A stretch of DNA of 64,000 bases, taken from positions 1-64,000 of the forward strand of contig CAIVZM010000002.1 of NCBI GenBank assembly GCA_903910385.1. The letters run 5' to 3'. Below, piece by piece: positions 17,256-20,233 of this stretch. A program made the translations under genes and the position numbers. The notes under the pieces are model-generated. The model was not told the DNA's origin, searched no databases, and saw only the letters and a program-made list of their open reading frames with translations. Source of the DNA: an uncultured Armatimonadota bacterium. GTDB lineage: Bacteria; Armatimonadota; Armatimonadia; Armatimonadales; Armatimonadaceae. Position 1 is the first letter of the stretch. Each line of letters starts with the position of its first letter.

Positions 17256-18248
17256 TCAGGCCGTTTCGATGGCGTCCAGAGCCAGTGAAGCGCCGCCGTA
17301 GATACCGGCATCGTCACCTAATTCCGCAGGGACGATTTTGCAGGATTTCACCAGGGTGGGTATGCCATTGTTCCGGGTGGAACGGCGAATCGGTTCCAGG
17401 ATTAATTCGCCCGCCTGAGCGACTCCGCCGCCGATGACGACCATCTCCGGATTGAGCAGATTGATCATGCTGGCGATTCCGTAGCCGACATACGTCCCCA
17501 CTTCTTCATATACCTCAATCGCAACGGCGTCGCCTTCTGCGGCGGCATCCGCAATAATCTTAGGTGTAAGAAAATGCCAATCCTCCACGCGTTCGTTCAG
17601 GATGGTCTTGCGCCCGTCACACATTTTACGTGCTGCTCGTTCACAGATAGCGGCAATCTGCCCCATGCTTTCCAATGAACCGAACGCCGATGCGCCGCCT
17701 CTTTCGCCTGCCGCGACGATAATATGCCCGATCTCTCCGGCTCCGCCGGTGGCGCCTGTCCACAGTTTGCCATCGAGAATAATCCCGCCGCCGATACCTG
17801 TGCCCAGAGTGACCATGACAATCGTTCGGGAACCACGACCGGCTCCAAAACGAAATTCGCCGAGCGCTGCCACATTGGCGTCATTTCCCATAAAAACGGG
17901 AAGGTTGAGCATCGCTTCGATGGGGGAGGCAAGGCGAACGTTACGCCAGGGGCCGCCCTGTTCGAAAAAATTCGGCGCCCAGAGTACAACGCCATTCTTA
18001 TCATCAATATGTCCGGGTACACCCATGCCGACGCCCGCAACTTCCTCTGGCTTTACGCCAGCGGACTGCATGGCAGTTTGCGCCGCATGGACAATCTGTC
18101 CTGCAGTCTGCGCCATACCTTCGGTCGCAAAGGATGGGGCGCGTCCCGACCCTTTCAAATTACCTTGTTTATCCAGTACGGCGGCTCGTACATTCGTTCC
18201 GCCTAAATCAATCCCCAGTACATAGGGGGCTTCCTTGTTTAATTGCAT
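17256..18248 (-). CDS. ROK-family sugar kinase (glucokinase-like)
   Basis: Probably phosphorylates glucose or a related hexose with ATP in the cytoplasm. The 330-residue product shows the ATP-binding loop LGIDLGGTNVRAAVLD, the sugar-binding and catalytic segment PVFMGNDANVAALGEFRFGAG, the second phosphate motif VTLGTGIGGGIILDG, and EMVVIGGGVAQAG. The usual zinc site CxCGxxGC of ROK proteins is replaced by GGASAFGS directly after GEIGH, so the three Cys ligands are missing. Some ROK kinases lack them, but substrate and activity should be read with caution. The gene is a single minus-strand unit. A weak GGAG lies 12 bases before the start. Confidence 0.88.
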   Translation of the reverse strand: MQLNKEAPYVLGIDLGGTNVRAAVLDKQGNLKGSGRAPSFATEGMAQTAGQIVHAAQTAMQSAGVKPEEVAGVGMGVPGHIDDKNGVVLWAPNFFEQGGPWRNVRLASPIEAMLNLPVFMGNDANVAALGEFRFGAGRGSRTIVMVTLGTGIGGGIILDGKLWTGATGGAGEIGHIIVAAGERGGASAFGSLESMGQIAAICERAARKMCDGRKTILNERVEDWHFLTPKIIADAAAEGDAVAIEVYEEVGTYVGYGIASMINLLNPEMVVIGGGVAQAGELILEPIRRSTRNNGIPTLVKSCKIVPAELGDDAGIYGGASLALDAIETA

Positions 18249-18551
18249 TATCGCGGCTTACTCCACTGCGTTTTTCCCTGCCAGTATAGCGAGGGTTCTG
18301 GCAGAGTGTCAATCCGTTCTGTGTCATCCGTATAATCCTACTATCTCACGAAAGCCCGTTCAGGGTAATCGTATCAGGGATAATTTCATTAATGCTTTTG
18401 CATCAAAGATGGAAATATAAAACCGGAGGAGGCTTCCTCACCCCCTTCAGACAGCATAAACAATGCATAGCCGCCATGAAAAGTATCACACTCCTTGGTT
18501 CTTTCCTCTTCCTGAGCAATTTCCAATCCCGAAGTGCGAAATTGCGTGTCA

Positions 18552-18566
18552 AGTGGAGGTCAGTGG
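18552..18566 (+). promoter_or_regulatory. Distal MraZ-box-like repeat pair
   Basis: AGTGG occurs at 18552-18556 and 18562-18566, exactly 10 bases apart. A weaker AAAGG follows at 18572. The form matches the MraZ operator pattern of short GTGG-type units, one per helical turn. It lies about 220 bases above the proximal cluster. Confidence 0.55.
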
Positions 18567-18739
18567 AGGCGAAAGGTTGTATAGAGAGGATTCACCTCCG
18601 TATTCAATATCCGCTCGCCTCTCATGTTTGGCAAACGTTCGTGCAAACAAAAACACTACATCTTGTAGTCAAACAGCCGTTGACGATCTATATACAGTGG
18701 TATACGAGGGGAAAATTGACGATTTTTATCGGTTTACCA

Positions 18740-18768
18740 TTGACATACGTCTGTGTGGGGGTTACAAT
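18740..18768 (+). promoter_or_regulatory. mraZ (dcw cluster) promoter
   Basis: A perfect TTGACA (18740-18745) and TACAAT (18763-18768) are 17 bases apart, the strongest sigma-70-type promoter in the window. Transcription would start near 18775, inside the first proximal AGTGG repeat. Confidence 0.85.
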
Positions 18769-18774
18769 CGCCTC

Positions 18775-18800
18775 AGTGGTGGCAAGTGGTGACTCAGTGG
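18775..18800 (+). promoter_or_regulatory. Proximal MraZ-box-like triple repeat
   Basis: AGTGG occurs at 18775, 18785 and 18796 (spacing 10 and 11). The first covers the expected transcription start; the last runs into the GTGGAGG ribosome site of mraZ. Bound MraZ would block both transcription start and translation. Confidence 0.75.
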
Positions 18801-18810
18801 AGGCATGTGA

Positions 18811-19242
18811 TTGTTTCGTGGGGCGCATTATCATTCTGTGGATGACAAGGGGAGAGTGATCATCCCTTTGCGCTTTCGTAACGAACTCGGCAACACTTTT
18901 GTAATCACCAAAGGTCTCGACCGATGCTTGTTTGTGTTCCGGGAAGACGCCTTCTCTGAAATGGAAAAGAAGCTTGAGGCGCAGCCAGCGCTCGACAAGC
19001 ACACAATTCGTTTGCAACGATGGTTTTCGGCGGAAGCGTTGGAAACGCAGGTGGACAGTCAGGGGCGCGTCGCGATACCCAGTAACTTGCGGGACTTTGC
19101 CGTCATAGGCGAGGATGTTGTGATCGTGGGAGCAGGCAGCCGAATTGAGATATGGAGTCGGGATGGTTGGGATGCTTTCAATGCAAGCTTGACTGACAGT
19201 GATATCAGCGAATCCGCCGCCGAAGTCGGTCTGGGAAAGTAA
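18811..19242 (+). CDS. mraZ: Transcriptional regulator MraZ
   Basis: DNA-binding regulator at the head of the dcw cluster; in other bacteria it represses its own promoter through short direct repeats. The 143-residue product has two SpoVT/AbrB-like half-domains, each with the family signature: VDDKGRVIIPLRFRNEL (about 9-25) and VDSQGRVAIPSNLRDFA (about 80-97). The start is TTG at 18811, chosen because GTGGAGG lies 7 bases upstream and the protein begins FRGAHYHSVDDKGR as expected. The AGTGG repeats just upstream support autoregulation. rsmH follows after 55 bases. Confidence 0.95.
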   Translation: MFRGAHYHSVDDKGRVIIPLRFRNELGNTFVITKGLDRCLFVFREDAFSEMEKKLEAQPALDKHTIRLQRWFSAEALETQVDSQGRVAIPSNLRDFAVIGEDVVIVGAGSRIEIWSRDGWDAFNASLTDSDISESAAEVGLGK

Positions 19243-19297: not shown

Positions 19298-20233
19298 ATG
19301 AGCGCATATCACACGCCCGTTATGCTGGTGGAAGTTCTGGAATCGCTTTCGCTGGCGCCGGGACAAACGATTGTCGATGGCACTCTGGGAGGCGGAGGGC
19401 ATTCCCGTCCCATTTGTGACAGGATTGCGCCAGGCGGAATGTTGATCGGGTTGGATCGTGATCAGGATGCGCTGGATGCTGCGACGCTCGCTTTATCCGA
19501 TGTACCCGAGACGGTGGCGGTCAAGTTCGTACGCTCGAACTACGCCGATATCGCTACGGCTTTAAACGGTGTCGGGATCGAAGCTGTAGACGGAGTATTG
19601 CTGGATCTGGGCGTCTCGTCGCATCAGTTGAATACGCCGGAACGCGGTTTCGCATTACGGTATGTCGGTCCGTTAGATATGCGTATGGATGTGTCCTCCG
19701 GTCAGACAGCAGCGGATTTATTGAACACGTTGCCGGAAGCGGAAATCGCTCGCATTCTCTTCGAGTATGGCGAGGAACCGCGAGCCCGCCGTATCGCGGC
19801 GGAAATCGTTCGGCGACGAGCGACGCGACCGCTGATAACGACCGAAGATCTGGTGGACACGCTTCGAGCGACCATGCCTTTTCGGACACGACCCGGTGAG
19901 ATTCACCCGGCGACAAAAACGTTTCAGGCGATACGGATCGCTGTCAATCAGGAACTGGATGCTATTGAAACGGCGTTGAGGGCGGCGACAAACGCATTAA
20001 AACCGGGAGGTCGTCTGGTAGTGATTGCATATCACTCATTGGAAGACCGAATCGTAAAAAATACTATGGCTGAGTTATCCGGCAAACGTGTCGAGACGGA
20101 CTTTCCGTCAACTCCGTTGCCCAAGATCGTGGAAGTAAAAACAAAAAAACCGTTGACGCCAACGGAAGAGGAAATTCGCGCTAATCCACGGGCGCGCAGT
20201 GCAAAAATGAGAGTAGCGGAGAGGAGGCCGTAG
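19298..20233 (+). CDS. rsmH: 16S rRNA (cytosine1402-N4)-methyltransferase
   Basis: Methylates N4 of C1402 in 16S rRNA at the decoding centre using S-adenosylmethionine. The product is 311 residues from ATG 19298; a TTG four codons earlier is a weaker choice. It shows the N-terminal HTPVMLVEVLESL, the SAM motif VDGTLGGGGHS, IGLDRDQDAL, GVLLDLGVSSHQL, GPLDMRMD, TKTFQAIRIAVN and IAYHSLEDRIVK. Its place directly after mraZ is the standard dcw order. Confidence 0.97.
   Translation: MSAYHTPVMLVEVLESLSLAPGQTIVDGTLGGGGHSRPICDRIAPGGMLIGLDRDQDALDAATLALSDVPETVAVKFVRSNYADIATALNGVGIEAVDGVLLDLGVSSHQLNTPERGFALRYVGPLDMRMDVSSGQTAADLLNTLPEAEIARILFEYGEEPRARRIAAEIVRRRATRPLITTEDLVDTLRATMPFRTRPGEIHPATKTFQAIRIAVNQELDAIETALRAATNALKPGGRLVVIAYHSLEDRIVKNTMAELSGKRVETDFPSTPLPKIVEVKTKKPLTPTEEEIRANPRARSAKMRVAERRP

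Follow-up and report, generated by a model that had tools for sequence, protein, structure and literature searches.

Upstream of mraZ in the genome of an uncultured bacterium of the Armatimonadaceae, the pentamer AGTGG recurs at 10-11-bp spacing in two separate places, one over the expected start of transcription and the other further upstream. An earlier note on this DNA proposed that both belong to an operator for MraZ itself. Here, we ask whether the two clusters are likely to serve as MraZ sites, what each would contribute, and whether the overlap of one of them with the ribosome site carries regulatory meaning. Throughout, the window is the whole stretch of DNA analysed (64 kb), while genome-wide statistics refer to the 4.47-Mb assembly and derive from pattern searches.

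The mraZ locus and its promoter

The gene downstream of the repeats is mraZ (18811-19242, plus strand), which encodes a 143-aa protein from a TTG start and is identified by PF02381 (E 6.6e-33) and by TIGR00242, with a score exceeding the cut-off. It is the single mraZ copy in the genome, and named records with an MraZ 80-83% identical belong to Armatimonadota/Armatimonadaceae. The protein consists of two AbrB-like halves, matched as two Pfam stretches and each bearing a D-x-x-x-R motif, and R15 and R86, together with the preceding D11 and D82, are invariant in 11 MraZ sequences; solved MraZ structures comprise the 1n0e and 9qlr families. Behind mraZ, the dcw cluster continues with rsmH/mraW (19298-20233, plus strand, probable ATG at 19298; PF01795, TIGR00006), then an ftsL-like open reading frame and then a penicillin-binding protein.

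The predicted mraZ promoter (18740-18768, plus strand) combines a -35 hexamer TTGACA (18740-18745) and a -10 hexamer TACAAT (18763-18768) across a 17-bp spacer, matching at 11 of 12 positions, and both hexamers are identical in four relatives. The +1 used below is the one expected from this promoter, and it would give a leader of 36 nt, in which the Shine-Dalgarno GGAGG (18799-18803, plus strand) lies 7 nt before the TTG start. The sequence ATGTGATTG at 18805-18813 contains, directly 5' of that TTG, an ATG-TGA start-stop that is not conserved in the relatives and is probably due to chance. On the far side of the intergenic region, a ROK kinase gene (17256-18248, minus strand, PF00480) is preceded by a predicted divergent promoter, TTGACA-18-TATACT (18283-18312, minus strand). 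Between the distal repeats and the mraZ promoter there is also a conserved block, GGCAAACGTTCGTGCAAACAAAAACACTACATCTTGTAG (18628-18667), which takes the form GGCAAAC...GAACAAAACACAACATATAG in the relatives, leaves traces in the sister family and is possibly an activator site.

Phased AGTGG repeats

All five plus-strand AGTGG coordinates given in the earlier note (18552, 18562, 18775, 18785 and 18796) are exact; an additional lone copy occurs at 18696. As a word, AGTGG is not enriched (77 occurrences in the window against 75.6 expected), and its phasing alone is unusual, which led us to dismiss the idea that the boxes are merely common words. Over both strands of the 64-kb window, AGTGG pairs 10 or 11 bp apart are confined to 18552/18562, 18775/18785 and 18785/18796. 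When the intergenic region was shuffled 5000 times with its dinucleotides preserved, AGTGG pairs appeared in 0.18% of the shuffles and GTGG triples in 0.06%, with no AGTGG triple in any of them.

The proximal array as a probable mraZ operator

The three units at 18775, 18785 and 18796, spaced by 10 and 11 bp, span 18775-18803 (plus strand) and form a predicted MraZ operator. As proposed earlier, the array starts at the +1 expected after TTGACA-17-TACAAT and ends in the mraZ Shine-Dalgarno, whose GGAGG is made by the third unit (GTGGAGG); measured from the end of the -10, AGTGG begins at 7 nt and GTGG at 8 nt. Scored with a matrix built from relatives only, it is the best triple in the window. 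The array possibly extends, weakly and in phase, through GTGA at 18807 and GTGG at 18818 (18807-18821, plus strand), the latter in mraZ codons 3-4. GTGG likewise occurs at -4 and/or +7 in three relatives (G006, G007 and G002), although the +7 copy falls in the conserved MFRG codons, where protein constraint confounds the extension.

When the mraZ upstream regions of relatives were searched for the same AGTGG phasing, the proximal array proved to be conserved. In the intergenic alignment of five Armatimonadaceae (the window and four relatives, MraZ 80-84% identical), TTGACA, TACAAT and the three GTGG units are constant amid variable flanks, the exception being G003, whose middle unit is ATGG; the aligned consensus of the array is [AG]GTGG.G.C.A[AG]TGG.GACT.[AG]GTGGAGG. 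The sister family (Capsulimonadaceae, f2; Capsulimonas and allies) carries units at -35, -25, -14 and -3 in the same phase, and phased arrays extend to more distant Armatimonadota and to many Bacillota. Counted over nonredundant loci, three or more same-strand GTGG units in helical register lie within 150 bp of mraZ in 25 of 64 cases from Armatimonadota and in 23 of 36 from elsewhere, almost entirely Bacillota. The other 39 of the 64, in a set that contains divergent homologues and second copies, fall below three units, and many of them represent remote lineages. Arrays of opposite orientation (CCAC) within 150 bp of mraZ were found at 0 of the 64 Armatimonadota loci and 0 of the 36 others. 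Distances between GTGG units peak at 10-11, 20-22 and 31-33 bp, and at loci with a recognised promoter the first unit mostly begins 8-13 nt past the -10. An array that starts at the transcription start, past the -10, had been regarded as unusual; it is instead the norm, being the position in E. coli, in B. cenocepacia and at most array-bearing Armatimonadota and Bacillota loci.

As the term is used here, an MraZ operator is a site from which bound MraZ represses the promoter, and it is recognised in sequence as a cluster of three or more direct repeats that have a GTG(G) core about every 10 bp; the cluster adjoins, on the upstream side, an mraZ heading the dcw cluster, sits at the -10/transcription start of the mraZ promoter, and is kept in relatives while its flanks vary. 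The proximal cluster has each of these sequence properties. Because it is conserved in the relatives, in the same phase and place, and shares its layout with E. coli, B. cenocepacia and Mollicutes, we infer with high confidence that the candidate raised in the earlier note is the standard operator through which MraZ would regulate its own gene, and hence also the dcw operon.

Transcription or translation

The last unit of the array doubles as the ribosome site, and control was accordingly suggested to act on translation as well as transcription, either through MraZ or through the repeat in the mRNA. The doubling itself is real in the window, its four close relatives and the sister family, all of which have short leaders; the overlap of the third unit with GGAGG in short-leader species of two families would suit such dual control, as would an array near the ribosome site in some Bacilli MAGs (units at -33, -23 and -13). 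However, in longer leaders the arrays are clear of the ribosome site (-117 to -84 in f5 Armatimonadota, -82 to -42 in Lachnospiraceae, and likewise in E. coli), and across E. coli, f5 Armatimonadota, Lachnospiraceae and G009 the distance to the -10 is constant while that to the Shine-Dalgarno is not. Conservation thus tracks the promoter rather than the Shine-Dalgarno, pointing to control at the level of transcription initiation. Moreover, duplex DNA is the ligand of MraZ/AbrB-type folds, the predicted fold of the leader RNA is no better than those of shuffled sequences (z = 0.39), and an Rfam search of the leader returned no match; RNA-based control was discarded on the last two grounds, and an additional layer of translational control is very improbable. 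The overlap probably reflects instead the economy of a 36-nt leader, with the third unit doubling as ribosome site.

Another reading of the G-rich leader, as a regulatory G-quadruplex, follows a proposal for S. aureus, where a G-rich stretch past the mraZ promoter was reported to form a G-quadruplex and called conserved (PMC11796246). The conserved feature, however, is GTGG at helical spacing and in fixed orientation rather than runs of G, and Mollicutes retain only AAAGTG[T/G]; we consider a G-quadruplex element extremely unlikely here. The S. aureus G-quadruplex (PMC11796246) sits where other bacteria have the MraZ operator, and the two may be the same element.

The distal pair

The distal pair AGTGGAGGTCAGTGGAGG (18552-18569, plus strand), a candidate auxiliary MraZ site, lies ~223 bp upstream of the proximal array in the same orientation. 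With a pair-scoring matrix trained only on the relatives' proximal units and applied to both strands of the window, the top three phased pairs all lie at mraZ, two in the proximal array at 26.7 bits each and the distal pair at 25.4 bits, the next best pair away from mraZ reaching 15.4 bits; 2 Mb of simulated background held 0 pairs as good as the distal one. In the 4.47-Mb genome, GTGGWG(4-5)GTGGWG has four matches, of which three are at mraZ and the fourth falls within a coding gene, and the distal pair is one of two operator-like places outside the proximal array. A repeat element was rejected as its source, as 18310-18640 occurs once in the genome.

Same-strand phased boxes are also found in G006 at -267/-257 and in G003 at -269/-259/-249, the latter a full triple of 34.2 bits, and the shuffle probability of any pair in the relatives' distal region is 0.001 to 0.016. 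Together with the score and the empty background, these boxes uphold the view that the distal pair is more than chance. Its conservation is partial: two of the four close relatives have boxes at nearly the same distance, and the other two only decayed traces, their best pairs being weak but in nearly the same place (-269 in G007, -279 in G002). The G002 sequence around this spot aligns to that of the window with a score of 29 against a shuffle maximum of 31, which is only suggestive. Of the five close species, three therefore have clear distal boxes, namely that of the window, G003 and G006; they are missing from most other lineages, with an upstream pair at 1 of 61 Bacillota loci. By the definition given above the pair is not itself a full operator, with two clear units in the window and a triple in G003 only, and no plus-strand promoter-like site at the right distance. 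In the relatives, the distal spot falls within the leader of the divergent ROK kinase gene, and in the window ~280 bp of extra single-copy sequence lies between the pair and that gene. The boxes were kept despite this extra sequence, favouring a role towards mraZ. Judging from sequence, the distal pair is best regarded as a probable auxiliary MraZ site specific to this clade, and we lean towards its having an MraZ-binding role.

How such a site would act can be read in several ways. The earlier note invoked looping by the ring-shaped MraZ, whereby one ring, or two joined rings, would bridge both arrays. MraZ forms rings with spare binding domains, the distal units share the orientation of the proximal array, and the distal-proximal distances (223, 232, 234, 234 and 244 bp), taken modulo 10.5, are confined to an arc of 2 bp. 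This phasing is significant when all five species are taken (p 0.011) but not with the three clear sites only (p 0.14); moreover, the species are related, so that the distances are not independent, and the weak G007 and G002 sites were chosen as the best-scoring pair. Looping is a possibility that we hold as doubtful, and the fuller scheme, in which MraZ represses mraZ both from the proximal array and from an auxiliary one ~220-245 bp further upstream on the same face of the helix, with the ring bridging the two, seems unlikely. To our knowledge, there is no description of MraZ as a looping repressor of this ring-based kind. 

The pair might alternatively control the divergent ROK kinase gene rather than mraZ, given its place in the relatives, a short way downstream of the ROK promoter, and the phased boxes that the ROK leaders of G007 and G003 have on their own strand. 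In the window, however, the predicted ROK promoter is ~240 bp from the distal pair, yet the pair is strong, and the ROK leader has one AGTGG only (18267-18263, minus strand). The distal units also face mraZ, and as none of the 100 loci carries an opposite-orientation array in the 150 bp next to mraZ, units seem to follow the direction of transcription; control of the ROK gene is accordingly unlikely. Finally, the distal element resembles the window's own promoter-to-start region, making an old duplication possible, and the pair could be what is left of a functionless, dying duplicate. Its alignment with the proximal region runs through the -10, the boxes, the Shine-Dalgarno and the TTG (score 37, shuffle maximum 32), and the boxes of G007 and G002 have decayed. 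Neutral decay would nevertheless lose near-perfect boxes such as those of the window and the G003 triple, and a functionless remnant is conceivable rather than likely.

Other MraZ-like sites

GTGG triples elsewhere in the genome number four against two in a reversed-pattern control, a chance level, and were rejected as further MraZ targets; one of these four stray triples is a DnaA-box-like cluster. The extra GTGGWG pair, at C33:90587, was discarded as an operator because it lies inside a coding gene, as was the candidate GTGGACGTCAAGTGGATGCGGGTGG of G004, G010 and G011, the G004 copy of which lies inside a 571-aa reading frame.

Four species of one related genus carry an MraZ-like array of about eight GTGG units (GTGGAGACCAAGTGGTGACAAGTGG...), located at L159:2409-2690 (G008:C222) and at L160, L161 and L162 (G010, G011, G004), with more phased or tandem units on the other strand of the region. 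The array lies between two convergent genes, one for a DnaE2-like polymerase and the other for DNA-alkylation repair. With no gene start behind it, it has the look of a decoy, or of an MraZ site that is not an operator. Tandem copies of GTGGATAACTTGTGGATAA form DnaA-box-like clusters with 11-bp spacing in this genome (L036, C80:6346-6371) and at G005:C1:173431-173489 and G009:C213:16295-16331, perhaps marking a replication origin.

Some relatives (upstream regions L005, L007, L008) have MraZ-like boxes in the ROK kinase leader, exemplified by GTGGAGGCGAGTGGAGG in G007, while the boxes ATGGAGACTCAGTGGAGG upstream of the ROK gene in G010 may be coding. The window's ROK leader (18261-18312, minus strand) retains one AGTGGAG. 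A link between MraZ and this sugar kinase is possible, if weak.

Proposed mechanism and significance

We propose that MraZ would act on transcription initiation from the proximal array. Its ring would lay successive DNA-binding domains on GTGG units one helical turn apart, covering a single face of the helix between roughly +1 and +29, and RNA polymerase would thereby be kept from binding to the mraZ promoter or from escaping it. As an auxiliary site, the distal pair may raise local MraZ occupancy, perhaps with looping.

This reading would extend the MraZ operator, studied mainly in Proteobacteria and Mollicutes, to the poorly studied phylum Armatimonadota. It also yields a rule that can be read from sequence, namely same-strand GTGG at each helical turn from the transcription start, which applies in Armatimonadota, Bacillota and E. 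coli and makes MraZ control easy to test for in uncultured bacteria. If active, the distal site would provide a natural case for whether the MraZ ring bridges two DNA sites; such bridging, if true, would bear on the purpose of the ring shape.

Comparison with known operators

The E. coli K-12 mraZ leader AGTGGGAAATTGTGGGGCAAAGTGGG, taken directly from its sequence, has GTGG at -44, -34 and -24, and thus shares with the window three same-strand GTGG units 10 bp apart downstream of a TTGACA promoter, the first unit following the -10 (TAAACT) by 7 nt. It differs in its AGTGGG-like units and in a Shine-Dalgarno that lies downstream of the array, and it has no distal pair within 234 bp upstream. 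The MraZ boxes of E. coli are an established element (as cited in PMC8475190). In B. cenocepacia, the account of PmraBc in PMC7761207 gives an operator of four 7-nt repeats with 3-nt spacers, past the -10 and over the transcription start, and MraZ was shown to bind the repeat fragment. The repeated GTG units and their position agree with the proximal array and the number of repeats, four, differs; that account describes no distal cluster.

The Mollicutes site, (AAAGTGKN3)3 (Fisunov et al. 2016, as cited in PMC5282649), likewise consists of tandem GTG units with a 10-bp period, but has an A-rich consensus and lacks a GTGGAGG unit doubling as ribosome site. In Bacillota leaders (Lachnospiraceae, Bacilli), GTGG likewise recurs on the same strand every 10/11 bp, with the first unit mostly 11-12 nt past the -10, and many of these leaders are longer; their arrays, too, are predicted. 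Set beside these systems, the locus is of a known kind: its proximal operator is standard, and the distal pair is the only unusual part.
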